A stretch of DNA of 64,000 bases, from positions 1-64,000 of the forward strand of contig CALWLJ010000002.1 of NCBI GenBank assembly GCA_944381495.1, written 5' to 3'. The notes under the pieces are model-generated. The model searched no databases and was not told the origin of the DNA. It saw only the letters and a program-made list of their open reading frames with translations. This document shows, in pieces, positions 33 through 3,989 of this stretch. The position numbers and the translations under genes were made by a program. The first letter of the stretch is position 1. Each line of letters opens with the position of its first letter. The stretch is from an uncultured Mediterraneibacter sp. GTDB lineage: Bacteria; Bacillota; Clostridia; Lachnospirales; Lachnospiraceae.

Positions 33-335
33 TCAAAGAAGATTTTTCCCCATAGACACAGAAAATTTTACGCCCTCAACATAAAAGCCGATAAGCAGCC
101 AGTATCGGCGGACGTAACCATACATCCAGAGCAGTTCGGATATGAGCTGCTTTAATCTACCTTCTTTAATTCGTTGCATATAATGCATGATAGAAGCCAT
201 TTTCTTATGTAACGTCCCCTTACTATACTCTCTTCTTTTCTTAATTCTACATATATCATCTGCTTTCTGATACTGCCTCATTGAAAGGCAACTCATCAAC
301 AAGAAGAAAAGATCCCATTCCCCTATCCGCCGCAT
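33..335 (-). pseudogene. probable N-terminal remnant of an ABC exporter (frameshifted)
   Basis: The 100-codon frame ends in a run (ELLWMYGYVRRYWLLIGFY) that resembles the first transmembrane helix of Lachnospiraceae-type ABC exporters with fused permease and ATPase. Just before its stop, a shifted frame reads GEKSSLIRTRY, similar to the GSSLISKYLID stretch that normally follows that helix, but this frame also stops quickly. I infer a decayed or frameshifted exporter gene whose 5' end lies here and whose remainder, if any, is left of the window. It is the last gene of the RRE/radical SAM/kinase set, where an exporter would be expected. The similarity is from memory. It could instead be a short unrelated membrane protein. 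Its first codons overlap the right-hand part of a large inverted repeat. Confidence 0.4.
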
Positions 336-362
336 CCGCTGCGTGAATAGGGGAATAGGATC
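311..362. repeat. 18-bp inverted repeat with 16-nt loop
   Basis: The arms at 311-328 and 345-362 match at 16 of 18 positions around a 16-nt G+C-rich loop. On the minus strand the hairpin lies between the kinase stop codon and the ABC-like remnant, and it overlaps the start of that remnant. There is no U-run after it on the minus strand, so it is not a textbook terminator. It could be an mRNA stabiliser, a translation-blocking hairpin or the edge of an insertion. Confidence 0.6.
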
Positions 363-415
363 CCCCCTAAAATAACTGCGAATATGATCCGCAGATCATG
401 TCGGATAGAACTATA

Positions 416-1204
416 TCATTCTTTTCCAAAAATAGTCTCCTCTGTCAAGTGGACAGCATCTTCATCCGGGCGGCAGGAGAGCTCGTAAACAGGAACTGTT
501 CTAAGGAGCGCATCAAGAGTATCACATGCAGCCTTATACCCTTCCGTATACCATGAAGGCAGAAAAGCACTATTTATTACAGTTGAAACCATCTCAAATC
601 CACAAAGACGACGTATGGAATTCTGTTGACTCTGTTTCAAAACTATAAGTGCTGACAACGGAATCTGTCTGTTCAGGCAATAGGGAGATGAACCATGCCA
701 TGGGGAACCGCAGCCCAGAAAATAATCCGATTCGTGTTTTACAAAAACCATATCACCATTGATTATATCAGCTCCTCGATATTTCATCCATAATTCAGCT
801 TGGGTGGTCTTACCAATGCCGGACGGACCAAGGAATATGATACCCCGCTTATTTATCTCAATTAATGATGCATGAAGCTCAATTGCTTTACGTGTGGATA
901 GATGAGTTAGTAATACTGCATTTAGCAGTTTATATGTATCCTCTATTTGTCCACTAAACAGCGTAATCTTAACCTCTGTCCAATCAGAATTAGAGCAAAG
1001 AAGGCTATCGTTTGACTTTAATACAGGACTGCCTGGCTGTTGCTCCAAAACTTCAAGGCCATATTTTCTAAAAACCTGGAAAGATATATTTATATGCAAA
1101 TGACATAAATCAACTCTCTTGCACTGAAATTGTCTCCATTCAGGCCATAATTCCCTTTCCAAGTTTAAAAAAATATTTGTCACTACTCTATAATACATAA
1201 CCAT
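416..1204 (-). CDS. HPr kinase/PEPCK-fold-like ATPase of an RRE/radical SAM locus
   Basis: This is a HprK-like protein of about 262 residues. It has a Walker A motif (GPSGIGKTT, about residues 126-134), a preceding LHAS motif (about 110-113), an INGD acidic motif (about 148-151) and a GSPWHGSSP loop (about 166-174). These features fit the PEPCK-like fold of HPr kinase homologues found beside PqqD-like proteins. Some members in lasso-peptide loci phosphorylate the precursor peptide; the substrate here is unknown. No good ribosome site is visible. ATG codons at 1204 and 1198 and a GTG at 1228 (overlapping the previous gene) are all possible starts. It lies directly after the 119-residue protein gene, with little or no gap, so translational coupling is likely. 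It is more A+T rich than the genes to its right. Confidence 0.7.
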   Translation of the reverse strand: MVMYYRVVTNIFLNLERELWPEWRQFQCKRVDLCHLHINISFQVFRKYGLEVLEQQPGSPVLKSNDSLLCSNSDWTEVKITLFSGQIEDTYKLLNAVLLTHLSTRKAIELHASLIEINKRGIIFLGPSGIGKTTQAELWMKYRGADIINGDMVFVKHESDYFLGCGSPWHGSSPYCLNRQIPLSALIVLKQSQQNSIRRLCGFEMVSTVINSAFLPSWYTEGYKAACDTLDALLRTVPVYELSCRPDEDAVHLTEETIFGKE

Positions 1205-1209
1205 TAAAA

Positions 1210-1569
1210 TTAATAAATAACAATACACCCGGTTGGATCAACTGCAGTATTTCCATAATGATCACGGAAACTATTAAAATCCCCATGCATGATATAAGAG
1301 CCATAATTGTACACCATATCATTAATCTGCAATCTTTGTTGGTCTGTTGACAATCCGGTTTGACTCATAACACTTTCAACTTTTTCCTCTGTTAAAATAT
1401 CATTATCGACCGGCCATTCTCTATTAATTATTCCTCCAGGATACTTCCAATGGATTTCAAAACTTGCTGGTCTCTGTCCTTCTGGGCCTTCTATTGATGT
1501 CCCAGACATTCCAGCATCTAAATCATTATTCAATATCAATACTTCTGCATTCAAATTGTAATTACTCAT
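1210..1569 (-). CDS. unrecognised 119-residue protein, candidate substrate/precursor of the adjacent enzymes
   Basis: I do not recognise a family. The gene starts at an ATG 12 nt after the radical SAM stop codon, with a strong GGAGG site 5 nt upstream. It has no signal peptide or membrane helix. The N-terminal half is acidic and Asn-rich. The C-terminal part is rich in aromatic and Asn/Asp residues (YNYGSYIMHG, FNSFRDHYGN) and ends DPTGCIVIY with the protein's only Cys. Its position between a radical SAM-SPASM enzyme with an RRE partner and an HPr-kinase-like ATPase makes it the natural candidate for the peptide they act on. At 119 residues it would be long for a precursor, so an accessory protein is the main alternative. 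The substrate role is inference. Confidence 0.6.
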   Translation of the reverse strand: MSNYNLNAEVLILNNDLDAGMSGTSIEGPEGQRPASFEIHWKYPGGIINREWPVDNDILTEEKVESVMSQTGLSTDQQRLQINDMVYNYGSYIMHGDFNSFRDHYGNTAVDPTGCIVIY

Positions 1570-1581
1570 TTAATCCTCCAT

Positions 1582-2625
1582 CTATTTTATTGAATTCAGT
1601 AACAACCTCATATCTTCACAATATGTTTCTTCTACTTTTCCAATACCACCATTATTGCAAGCTAGACTTGCAATACATTTTCTACATCTATCCTGTACTG
1701 GACAACTATAACATTTTTTTGGCCAAGAGATACTCTCACTATATAGTTGAAGTGTCATCCAATTTTCTTCAAATGATCCATTGAAAACATCAATTTGGGG
1801 TTCATCTAAAAACAAACAGAACCTCATATATCCATCCCAAGTGATATCATATCCTGTTCTGTATATTGAGCAATACTCACATGGTTTTTTGTCTTTTCTA
1901 ATAAATGGCTTTTCATTCCACTCTTTGGATACGTCTTTGGTGCATCCCAAATCATATACACTCAAAGCACATTCTCTTGCATCAGTACTTGAGCCCCTTA
2001 GCGAAGGATAACAGGACGTACTGTAATACCAACGATATCGATTTACCATTGCATATTTCAGGATACTGCTTCTGTCTTCTATATTCTGTTTTACAAAAGT
2101 AGTTACGAGTTGGATAGGTATTTTCAATTTTCGTAGCCTTTGAATGCCTTCGTTCACTCTGCTAAAACCATTCTCTACCCGGCAGACGTCACGATATACA
2201 TCATTATTAGAACCATAAAGTGTAATCTTTGCCTCCTGAGGCGGATATTCATAAAAAAGCTGTTCCAACTTATCCGTAATTGAATATGCATTGGTCTGCA
2301 GTGTGATATAAAATCCCATTCCGGAAAGTGCTTTCCAAATCTTTTCGAATTCCGGATGGAGTACCGGATCACCTCCAGTTATACAGAGGGAAAACACTCC
2401 TGCGTCCTGAGCCTGTCTTCCCATCTCAATCCACTCCTCTGCGGTTAGTTCTCTTCCGCGTCCGCATGTCGGAATTTCCTCCGGATGAAGATGTACATAG
2501 CACATCTTACAGTTCAGAGCACAGCGGGGAGTCAATTCGAATGTTGCCTGAATCGGTCTGCATGCTTTATAGGCATCTTCCTTTATCCGACGGAAAATGT
2601 CCATACTTTCTTTCAGATCAGCCAT
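1582..2625 (-). CDS. radical SAM/SPASM peptide-modifying enzyme
   Basis: This 347-residue protein has the radical SAM cluster motif CX3CX2C (Cys35, Cys39, Cys42, in CALNCKMC), followed by the SAM-binding GGDP near residues 84-87. The C-terminal part is a SPASM region with Cys249, 252, 270, 305, 308, 314, 317, 323 and 336, including a GX4C segment (WDGYMRFC) and CX2CX5CX2C. Such enzymes place two auxiliary 4Fe-4S clusters and usually install C-C, thioether or similar bonds in ribosomally made peptides. The ATG overlaps the upstream RRE gene by 8 bp and has an AGGAG site inside it, so the two are translationally coupled. The chemistry and substrate cannot be read from sequence. Confidence 0.88.
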   Translation of the reverse strand: MADLKESMDIFRRIKEDAYKACRPIQATFELTPRCALNCKMCYVHLHPEEIPTCGRGRELTAEEWIEMGRQAQDAGVFSLCITGGDPVLHPEFEKIWKALSGMGFYITLQTNAYSITDKLEQLFYEYPPQEAKITLYGSNNDVYRDVCRVENGFSRVNEGIQRLRKLKIPIQLVTTFVKQNIEDRSSILKYAMVNRYRWYYSTSCYPSLRGSSTDARECALSVYDLGCTKDVSKEWNEKPFIRKDKKPCEYCSIYRTGYDITWDGYMRFCLFLDEPQIDVFNGSFEENWMTLQLYSESISWPKKCYSCPVQDRCRKCIASLACNNGGIGKVEETYCEDMRLLLNSIK

Positions 2626-2974
2626 TCTTATCCATCTCCTGAAGATGTTCCTTTTCTTTTTTACCTAGCTGAATCTTGGCAACTCCCATGACGGGCTCTG
2701 CTTTTCCGGAATCCAGCATGAAGTTATTGTCGAGAAGTTCCAAGAATTTACAAATATCTTCCCTGAGCCGCTCCTCCGTAACATCTGTATACTCTTTCAG
2801 TGCTGCTTCTACGAGAGAATCTAATGTAAATTCTCCTTCTTCCATAACTTTCCATATGTAAGCCGCTGTTCCACTAATATGCATAGGTTGACAGATTTGT
2901 GACAGCCGCCCTACCGGCATAACCATATAATATCCGGCAATTTGCCTCAATACGAGATTCTTTTTCAGCTTCAA
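2618..2974 (-). CDS. PqqD-like RRE (RiPP recognition element) protein
   Basis: This 118-residue protein has the PqqD-like pattern: a beta-rich N-terminus (LRQIAGYYMVMPVGR), the motif SGTAAYIWKVMEEG, then a helix with LVEAALKEY and a C-terminal LREDICKFLELL helix. PqqD-like proteins bind leader peptides and hand them to radical SAM-SPASM partners, which fits the adjacent gene. The start is a TTG at 2974 with an AAGGGAG site 9 nt upstream; the nearby ATG at 2981 is out of frame. About 40 residues at the C-terminus go beyond the usual domain and are charged (GKKEKEHLQEMDKNG). It is the first gene of the island, 142 bp after the response regulator. Confidence 0.8.
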   Translation of the reverse strand: MKLKKNLVLRQIAGYYMVMPVGRLSQICQPMHISGTAAYIWKVMEEGEFTLDSLVEAALKEYTDVTEERLREDICKFLELLDNNFMLDSGKAEPVMGVAKIQLGKKEKEHLQEMDKNG

Positions 2975-3087: not shown

Positions 3088-3120
3088 AGTATATAATCCC
3101 AAGTGTTACCAAACCGTTAC
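3088..3120 (-). promoter_or_regulatory. candidate SARP-type operator and -10 box for the RRE/radical SAM island
   Basis: On the minus strand GTAACGG and GTAACAC start 11 bp apart (3114-3120 and 3103-3109), and a TATACT box follows 9 nt later (3088-3093). No good -35 hexamer is visible. Direct heptamers one helical turn apart, placed where a -35 box would be, are the usual site of SARP activators, and the gene just upstream encodes a SARP-type response regulator. That the regulator binds here is inference. Confidence 0.4.
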
Positions 3121-3926
3121 TCTTTGATCCTTCCGTCCGCCAGTTCCAGTCTGGCGCATGTTTCCTCTGCCCAGGAGTATTCCTGTAGATAATTTCCGGT
3201 CAGGCGCCATTCCCGAAGCGCCTCAGGATTTCCTTTCAGCAGTTCATAATAATCACAGTCGATTTTCAAAACATCGATCTGACAAGTCCCTCTGTTTCCT
3301 AAAAATATTTCCTCTGCATCATGTTCCGTCAGGATCTGCCGGATGTACATAACTGCTTTGCGGTAGAGATTTTTAACCTGGTTGTCATAGGCCCTGTCCT
3401 CCCACAGCTTGTCCGCCGCCTCTTCCATTGTTACCGTGCCGCCTCTGCGGTCCACACACAGAGCCAGCAGCTCTTTTGCTTTCGTATTGCCGAAATAGAC
3501 CGCTCTGCCATCTATAAACACATCAAATCTTCCGAATGTCCGGACAAACACTCGCTTTTTCTGCCGTGCCGACAGCAATTTTGCACGTTTCAGCACTTCT
3601 TTGATGTCACTTGTGTCGTAAGGTTTGGTCACATAGTAATCCGCCTTAACCTTCAAGGCGTCCAGCGTATATTGTTCATATCCTGTAATAAAGATAACCA
3701 CCAGATCCGGCTGTATTTCCCGCATCCTTTCTGCAAGAACAATTCCGTTCATTCCCGGCATCTCGATATCCAGGAACGCCGCCTCCACTTTGTTATTTCG
3801 GACATATTCCAACGCCTCCAGCGGATTGAAAAATGCTCCGGAAACCGTTACTCCCGGTATTTCCTCCGTCTCCATTTCAAACTGTCGCAGGGCCAGCCTC
3901 TCATCGTCCACAATAATAACCCGCAT
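3117..3926 (-). CDS. response regulator with SARP-like winged-helix output domain
   Basis: The receiver domain fills residues 1-120: acidic pocket in IIVDDER, phospho-acceptor Asp53 in FLDIEMPG, and KPYD near residue 104. A SARP/OmpR-like winged helix follows from about residue 130 (VRTFGRFDVFIDGRAV, then KAKELLALCVDRRGG), with a short BTAD-like tail. The start is placed at the ATG at 3926, which has GAGGAG 8 nt upstream; the GTG at 3935 and ATG at 3932 are badly spaced. It follows the sensor kinase gene by about 60 bp, so the two form a two-component system. The RRE/radical SAM island is the next gene set downstream, so control of that island is plausible. Confidence 0.85.
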   Translation of the reverse strand: MRVIIVDDERLALRQFEMETEEIPGVTVSGAFFNPLEALEYVRNNKVEAAFLDIEMPGMNGIVLAERMREIQPDLVVIFITGYEQYTLDALKVKADYYVTKPYDTSDIKEVLKRAKLLSARQKKRVFVRTFGRFDVFIDGRAVYFGNTKAKELLALCVDRRGGTVTMEEAADKLWEDRAYDNQVKNLYRKAVMYIRQILTEHDAEEIFLGNRGTCQIDVLKIDCDYYELLKGNPEALREWRLTGNYLQEYSWAEETCARLELADGRIKE

Positions 3927-3989
3927 CCACATCACTCCTCAAAAAAGTATATCAATTATTTTCCGTCACCTTCTCTTTTCCGGCTCAGT

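Follow-up and report, generated by a model that had tools for sequence, protein, structure and literature searches.

The 64-kb stretch analysed here (the window), which forms the first 64 kb of contig C2 in the 3.19-Mb, 39-contig genome of an uncultured Mediterraneibacter sp., opens with a compact minus-strand cassette. It encodes a discrete recognition element (RRE) for ribosomally synthesized and post-translationally modified peptides (RiPPs), a radical S-adenosylmethionine (SAM)/SPASM enzyme, a small protein of 119 residues, an HprK-like ATPase and the beginning of an ATP-binding cassette (ABC) exporter. Judging from sequence comparison with related loci, we consider it probable, at roughly 0.62, that this cassette makes an RRE-dependent radical-SAM RiPP which is probably also phosphorylated and exported, in the manner of capsule-linked phospho-RiPPs. 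The parts of the cassette are as follows.

2618..2974, minus strand: discrete RRE, PqqD-like, with a TTG start and overlapping the start of the radical SAM gene (Pfam PF05402, E 6e-11)
1582..2625, minus strand: predicted radical SAM/SPASM peptide maturase, 347 residues (PF04055, E 2e-22)
1210..1569, minus strand: hypervariable small protein, 119 residues, probable precursor, no family match
416..1198, minus strand: HprK-like P-loop ATPase, probable peptide kinase; the open reading frame opens at 1228 (Hpr_kinase_C, E 1e-5)
893..1198, minus strand: hypervariable, A+T-rich N-terminal domain of the HprK-like ATPase, limits approximate
935..1609: stretch without BLAST match to the related locus L012, taking in the end of the radical SAM gene, the small gene and the 5′ part of the HprK gene
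78..200, minus strand: first 41 codons of an MsbA-type ABC exporter gene, present in full in relatives

The original prediction, made from the letters of the window, had listed the RRE, the radical SAM enzyme, the 119-residue protein, the HprK-fold ATPase and an exporter piece as five minus-strand features, and their positions were borne out. So was the A+T richness that it had ascribed to the island: cassette parts have a G+C content (GC) of 0.35-0.43 (0.42 for the RRE, 0.39 for the radical SAM gene, 0.35 for both the small gene and the N-terminal part of the HprK gene, and 0.43 for the C-terminal part) as compared to 0.49 for the whole window. The ATPase kept its identity but not its start, which is probably at 1198 rather than 1228, since residue 11 of the open reading frame is the Met at which both relatives begin. 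A promoter scan found 9 sites against 10.4 expected and thus no excess.

A first scan with the 119-residue protein alone gave no matches, and against 99 genomes it found its own genome plus one match at 25%. Because this protein is too variable as a query, the HprK-like protein was used to search for relatives, and an alignment search of genome contigs yielded 73 loci, mostly from Lachnospiraceae and other gut Clostridia and also from Thomasclavelia, Faecalitalea, Faecalicoccus and one Olsenella. Culturable commensals are represented among them, such as Blautia sp. An81 (L024) and Drancourtella massiliensis An770 (L063). The sample held one genome per species, many of them metagenome bins; own-genome duplicates or paralogues (L001, L003-L008), L009 (the same locus as L012) and L068 (a copy of L067) were dropped before counting. 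Gene order was assessed in the 63 loci whose sequence extends 1.9 kb or more upstream of HprK, the small gene being taken as one of 70-170 residues with a terminal Cys. The order RRE, radical SAM, small gene, HprK was found in 50 of these 63, and the recurrence of so ordered a gene set is therefore not attributable to chance. L068 was scored as a miss in this test for no other reason than the omission of its small protein; with that duplicate and the small gene both set aside, the radical SAM gene was present in 56 of 62 loci, the RRE gene in 54 and both in 52. Co-localisation of the four genes elsewhere had been named as a test by the original prediction, and it is seen in these loci. The exceptions to the order include L042 and L046, the fragmentary L038, and the distant HprK relatives L078-L080 and L082. 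Within the genus an HprK match at E 1e-20 was obtained in 26 of 58 genomes, most of these matches being distant, and the small-protein profile at E 1e-6 matched 2 of 118 sampled genomes of the class, the window's own included, so that the system is patchy. A plasmid search gave three partial matches at 27-30% identity.

Some loci showed further arrangements. By eye, a resolvase-like open reading frame lies upstream of the cassette in L042 (5951-6559). On the contig that holds L011, a second, partial cassette (L038:7800-8100) has the core half of a small gene directly before HprK, exporter and exopolysaccharide (EPS) genes; no RRE or radical SAM gene was found in the L038 locus, and it looks like a silent or donor copy. 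L050 (2995-8774) contains a tandem pair of cassettes with unlike small proteins. The radical SAM enzyme of L059 (Olsenella sp. An285, Actinomycetota) groups with a Gemmiger (Bacillota) copy on a starred branch of the tree, which suggests transfer between phyla. The window's own genome also carries, on contig C30, a sister system (L114:7324-10613) with an MKKxYxKP...IAxC precursor (a YxxP leader), an HprK-like protein and a radical SAM/SPASM enzyme in a different gene order, with a 309-residue protein without Pfam match encoded between the latter two genes; YxxP precursors like this one occur in L095, L098-L101 and L111.

The small protein has no match in Pfam, NCBIfam or PADLOC families, and the profile of its family found only chance-level matches in PDB (antibody chains, E 0.28 and 0.41). 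In the window it has an N-terminal leader, a W41..G45-G46..W52 motif and C115 with four residues after it. Main-group small proteins share a W..GGxTGxGW motif: in the main-group alignment (A5, 51 rows, which excludes the MKKxY-type group, L010, L038, L044 and L074) Gly46 and Cys115 are each present in 51/51, Trp52 in 49/51 and Trp41 in 48/51. A Cys falls within the last 11 residues in all 58 of the 58 counted small proteins, as compared to ~11% expected from composition; the proteins are 85-150 residues long, and in 41 of the 58 this Cys is the only one. Outside this count stand L010 (partial), L044 (168 residues), L038 (a fragment), one of the two in L050, L041 (where the first open reading frame was chosen wrongly; the right one is in A5), L078 and L082 (with reading frames that do not look related), loci with no reading frame of 70-170 residues (L017, L049, L062, L065, L073, L079 and L080) and loci with no reading frame at all (L030, L040 and L052). 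A second group, typically starting MKKxYVxPESKL, has YxxP in 8 of 8 members; in lasso and LPP systems, discrete RREs bind the leader at this motif (PMC13381572). A looser leader pattern matched 46 of 60 small proteins in a count made without a chance control, and its match in the window lies outside the leader. That the 119-residue protein is the precursor is well supported by the position of its gene, by the YxxP leader in one group of relatives, by the constant motif and terminal Cys, and by change much faster than that of the enzymes, all of which favour the peptide-substrate role first proposed for it.

The enzymes that would act on this protein are better anchored in known families. The PqqD-like RRE and the radical SAM-SPASM enzyme had both been named in the original prediction, and the Pfam matches listed above, together with conservation of the SPASM-type Cys residues, uphold both assignments. 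In other loci, too, a relative of the RRE is encoded upstream of the radical SAM enzyme; searched against PDB, the RRE profile did not retrieve any RRE. In the radical SAM enzyme, the CX3CX2C motif (C35, C39 and C42) is kept in 58/58 sequences and the seven SPASM-type residues (C252, C270, C305, C308, C314, C317 and C336) in 57-58 of 58, and no SPASM match was obtained in Pfam at E 1. Its best PDB profile match was SkfB (6efn, E 2e-14), a sactisynthase. C148, which lies outside the cluster motifs, is likewise kept in 58/58. A viperin (pVip) label was considered and rejected: the NCBIfam viperin model gave 39.6 of 180 bits, and the PADLOC match (2e-12) stems from the shared radical SAM core. 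NCBIfam and PADLOC scans supported no other defence label for the cassette.

The Hpr_kinase_C match of the HprK-like protein falls below Pfam's own cut-off. H119, the Walker A motif GxSGIGKTT and N157-G158-D159 are nevertheless kept in at least 95% of 66 sequences, and alignment to L. casei HprK sets G-D against that enzyme's D-D. Seven HprK N-terminal pieces searched against Pfam gave no convincing family (best E 0.045). The HprK profile also matched dynein, which was set aside as background from the P-loop.

The small gene and the adjoining N-terminal part of HprK form a hypervariable segment between conserved flanks. Across 28 pairs of loci with radical SAM enzymes at least 75% identical (identities being means over two bins), mean identity is ~82% for the RRE and ~79% for the radical SAM enzyme, drops to 37% for the small protein after residue 20 and 39% for the HprK N-terminal domain, and reaches 88% for the HprK C-terminal domain. 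The clearest pair is L113, an own-genome paralogue on contig C1, and L025, from Candidatus Mediterraneibacter stercoripullorum. Their DNA is 96% identical over 7.1 kb, to a point 35 bases inside the small gene; the next 670 bases, covering the body of the small protein and the HprK N-terminal domain, have no BLAST match; and identity returns to 93-98% at about codon 103 of HprK, a level that continues across the exporter and the EPS genes. Counted per 100 bp, identity is 86-100% upstream, 32-48% in six inside segments, 68 and 70% at the borders, and 83-100% downstream, except in the last two segments and at an L025 insertion between HprK and the exporter. Similarity is lost over the same stretch in the more diverged pairs L028/L063, L047/L076, L026/L027 and window/L012; in the last of these the unmatched 935..1609 lies between matches of 71-72% identity. 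Composition follows the same borders even within a single reading frame, GC being 0.28 in the N-terminal and 0.53 in the C-terminal part of HprK in L113 and 0.25 and 0.55 in L025; it is lower in the N-terminal than in the C-terminal part in 49 of 54 loci, and lower in the small gene than in the radical SAM gene in 45 of 54. We infer that the replaced segment was exchanged by recombination.

Comparison of nonsynonymous (dN) and synonymous (dS) substitution adds a second view of the same gene. The small genes of L011 and L012 agree in all of their first 30 codons, and beyond these dN is 0.111 and dS 0.119, as compared to 0.021/0.157 for the radical SAM gene; similarly, the small gene of L033/L043 has 0.277/0.369 against 0.058/0.480. 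In these two pairs a conserved leader is followed by a variable core. In L059/L077 small-gene dN is raised (0.44 vs 0.16) with dS saturated, and in L053/L056 dS is saturated for both genes. Alleles also cross the enzyme tree. Five loci with alike small proteins (L002, L023, L026, L039 and L051) sit on five branches of the radical SAM tree and need 5 changes, and holding them as one clade was rejected by the approximately unbiased test (p-AU 0.00046; quick tree of 51 rows). This group was defined by small-protein similarity before the tree was built and comprises the five most alike of a nine-locus BLAST cluster (c14), with L034, L053, L056 and L060 left out; four members are alike at 60-67%, and L023 is 57% identical to L002 over the whole length. 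Over 48 loci, similarity of the small-protein body tracks that of the HprK N-terminal domain (partial r 0.28, a value reached in none of 999 permutations) and of the radical SAM enzyme (partial r 0.22), and does not track the HprK C-terminal domain (r -0.11).

Beyond the cassette itself, the surroundings of the relatives point to the cell envelope. Neighbours were called crudely, as longest open reading frames in single-linkage clusters of which one (c0) combines several EPS families, and the counts for exporter and EPS genes are accordingly rough. An exporter cluster is found on the same strand in 56 of 69 loci, with MsbA-type NCBIfam matches below cut-off, and EPS cluster genes stand alongside in 52 of 61; Pfam searches of chosen members identified Wzz with AAA_31, CpsB/CapC, an Ig-like surface protein and LytR_cpsA_psr. 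Of 75 loci, many of them truncated, 28 have an NTP_transf_5 (PF14907) cluster, on either strand, and PF14907 matched 8 of 8 scanned members. An S24-like peptidase cluster is present in 7 of 75 loci, six of them MKKxY-type, and no macrolactam synthetase or B2 peptidase was found among the subset of neighbour genes annotated by Pfam. Two-component-system clusters lie within 5.5 kb upstream on the same strand in 22 of the 45 loci with enough sequence, including a LytTR regulator with a GHKL kinase in L026 and L113. The remaining features of the window's own locus are these.

3117..3935, minus strand: response regulator, upstream of the cassette (PF00072, E 3e-21), with a counterpart upstream of the cassette in L012
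3990..5846, minus strand: sensor histidine kinase, upstream of the cassette (PF06580, E 3e-24), with a counterpart in L012
1..77: one end of a multicopy repeat (probably an insertion element) that abuts the start of the exporter, at the contig end

Since the window begins at a contig start, the operon runs off the assembly: the window shows only the start of the exporter, and EPS genes are not visible because the contig ends. The open reading frame at 33-335 had originally been read as an exporter-like fragment. Its exporter portion is confined to the 41 codons at 78-200, which are 81% identical in DNA to L012 as far as base 79, and bases 1-77 proved to be the repeat, which is found at 95-100% identity at the ends of six further contigs of this genome (C28, C38, C29, C31, C21 and C16). 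Read on the minus strand, the repeat end at 1-77 starts GAGGGCGTAAAATTTTCTGTGTC, and two variants, at 95-100% identity, occur at contig ends across the genome. The junction has the look of an exporter gene interrupted by an insertion element, or of an assembly break caused by such an element.

We infer from these data the identity of the substrate, its chemistry, phosphorylation and export, and its role, as follows. The RRE would hold the N-terminal leader and present the small protein to the radical SAM/SPASM enzyme, which may modify the W..GG[FI]TGxGW region, the conserved Cys near the C-terminal end, or both; a thioether or C-C crosslink closing a large loop would be the most likely chemistry. 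The HprK-like ATPase would then phosphorylate a Ser or Thr, its variable N-terminal domain reading the variable core and its constant C-terminal domain binding ATP, so that a doubly modified product, radical-crosslinked and phosphorylated, is plausible. In loci with an NTP_transf_5 gene, further decoration of the phosphate may follow, as proposed for paeninodins and LPPs. The MsbA-type exporter would release the product, whose most likely place of action is the cell surface or extracellular matrix, given that capsule/EPS assembly genes usually follow in the operon. Together, the body of the precursor and the N-terminal domain of HprK would make up an A+T-rich stretch of ~600 bp, swapped by recombination among operons that are nearly identical elsewhere. 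A wider proposal, which we put forward tentatively and hold to be somewhat less probable than its opposite, is that this block, comprising the body of an exported radical-SAM-modified protein and its kinase recognition domain, is exchanged, sometimes in part, between otherwise fixed capsule operons of gut bacteria. Strains could then change the chemical identity of a surface or matrix peptide in the way they change serotype, every allele being processed by one constant backbone of RRE, radical SAM enzyme, ATPase and exporter.

Several observations weigh against the main reading. L042 and L046 have RRE, small gene and HprK with no radical SAM gene nearby; since the contig of L042 also holds the complete set L051, the enzyme may act there in trans. 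Ser or Thr occupies position 48 of A5 in 45 of 51 rows, the window being an exception with Ile. Variability extends even to the presumed leader, the first 20 residues (39% identity over the 28 closer pairs), and the window leader fits the consensus poorly. In L035/L045 the small gene is scarcely faster than the radical SAM gene (dN 0.27 vs 0.23). The coupling of small-protein body and HprK N-terminal domain, at the partial r given above, is only partial, and in L002, L026, L039 and L051, which share a small-protein allele at 60-67%, the HprK N-terminal domains are only 18-28% identical. Strict co-exchange of the two parts, which we had considered, is weakened by the latter finding, and only a partial coupling is therefore claimed. 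Finally, the HprK-like protein has N-G-D where HPr and lasso-peptide kinases have D-D. Both Asp residues matter in BsfK (PMC10368454), so a kinase function for the present protein is plausible and not assured. It could instead be an ATP-driven chaperone or regulator of the modification complex, leaving a product that is radical-modified only, a role in keeping with the replaced first Asp and with the lack of any match above cut-off to the kinase equivalogs. We regard this as rather unlikely, given that the Walker A motif, the conserved His and the second Asp are so widely kept, that HprK-like proteins of related RiPP systems phosphorylate their precursors (PMC10368454 and PMC13381572), and that NTP_transf_5, a partner of such kinases in those systems, is present at the frequency given above.

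Other readings differ over what the product is for. Hypervariable alleles are typical of signalling groups, and with two-component genes so often upstream the small protein might be a secreted signal, matured by the RRE, radical SAM and HprK-like proteins, released by the ABC exporter and sensed by the adjacent two-component system to turn on the EPS operon. Yet the 7.1 kb upstream in L113 and L025, histidine kinase included, are 96% identical although the precursor bodies differ; the sensor of this pair therefore does not follow the allele, and quorum sensing was marked down. As 23 of the 45 loci also lack a two-component system under this test, and the proteins are long for a pheromone, we hold a signalling role to be improbable. 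Allele replacement and fast core evolution are typical of conflict systems, both are observed here, and the radical SAM enzyme finds its best PDB match in a sactisynthase, all of which would suit a narrow-spectrum bacteriocin with immunity or neutralisation supplied by the hypervariable HprK N-terminal domain. No separate immunity gene was seen within the replaced segment, however, and the four allele-sharing loci have unlike HprK N-terminal domains, which makes a bacteriocin a poor bet. Whether the window's own copy still yields an exported product is a distinct matter, on which we find the odds even. A mobile element may have cut the exporter and left a decaying remnant, as the repeat abutting the exporter start and recurring at six other contig ends would suggest; against this, all four upstream reading frames are intact, a full-length exporter reading frame in the own-genome paralogue L113 might serve in trans, and the junction, lying at a contig end, could be an assembly effect.

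The reading of the cassette as a phosphorylated radical-SAM RiPP system places it near, and apart from, several known systems. Closest are the LPP systems of Bacilli (LppA/B/K/S/D/N), which, as described in PMC13381572, share a discrete RRE, an HprK-like kinase, an MsbA-like exporter, a Y-containing leader motif and a location in capsular polysaccharide loci; their precursors of 35-200 residues have a conserved N-terminus and variable C-terminus, as in some pairs of loci here, and the NTP_transf_5 gene that they carry accompanies 28 of 75 of the present loci. A word search there found no mention of radical SAM for LPP, and a signal-peptidase-like leader peptidase is described there as an LPP core gene, whereas the cassette has none and the S24-like cluster is rare; the radical SAM/SPASM enzyme, W..GGxTGxGW motif, terminal Cys and replaced segment are features of the present system. 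Paeninodin- and Bsf-type phosphorylated lasso peptides are alike in having an RRE and an HprK-like kinase that acts on the precursor (PMC10368454) and, for paeninodins, a capsule linkage (PMC13381572), and differ in that the present system has a radical SAM enzyme and a larger precursor and no macrolactam synthetase or B2 peptidase among annotated neighbours. Set against the defining features of these phospho-RiPPs, H119, the Walker A motif and D159 are kept, but the DD pair is GD; a signal-peptidase-like peptidase and a macrolactam synthetase are missing from the cassette, and a capsule/EPS location with an MsbA-like exporter is present. Sactipeptide and ranthipeptide maturases (SkfB, AlbA and StsB) likewise combine RRE guidance with radical SAM/SPASM chemistry on a Cys-containing precursor, and are set apart by the predominantly single Cys, the precursors of 85-150 residues, the extra HprK and the EPS context found here. 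SynChlorMet cassettes do unite an HprK-like protein (ScmC) with radical SAM/SPASM enzymes (ScmE and ScmF), but have two of the latter as compared to one here and come from other organisms. Moreover, NCBIfam matches to them fall far below cut-off, at 16 of 125 bits for ScmC, 59 of 400 for ScmE and 53 of 400 for ScmF.

Among the matches listed in literature searches for such combinations of genes, none described the set, and word searches of RRE papers and of a Bacteroidales RiPP paper did not show it either. The original statement that no described class has exactly this set thus agrees with those matches, but it overlooked LPP and paeninodin phospho-RiPPs in capsule loci, the closest relatives, and likewise the setting in EPS operons, the repeat within the exporter gene and the hypervariability of the exchanged segment.

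If the proposed reading is true, radical SAM RiPP chemistry would be joined to HprK-type phosphorylation and to capsule operons in common gut commensals, and nature would provide a means of swapping RiPP cores of ~100 residues while a single tolerant enzyme set is retained. Operons with matched flanks and unlike cores would then amount to a natural experiment on the tolerance of an RRE, a radical SAM enzyme and a kinase for new substrates, and the same matched-flank pairs may inform what selection drives the diversity of surface peptides in the gut.

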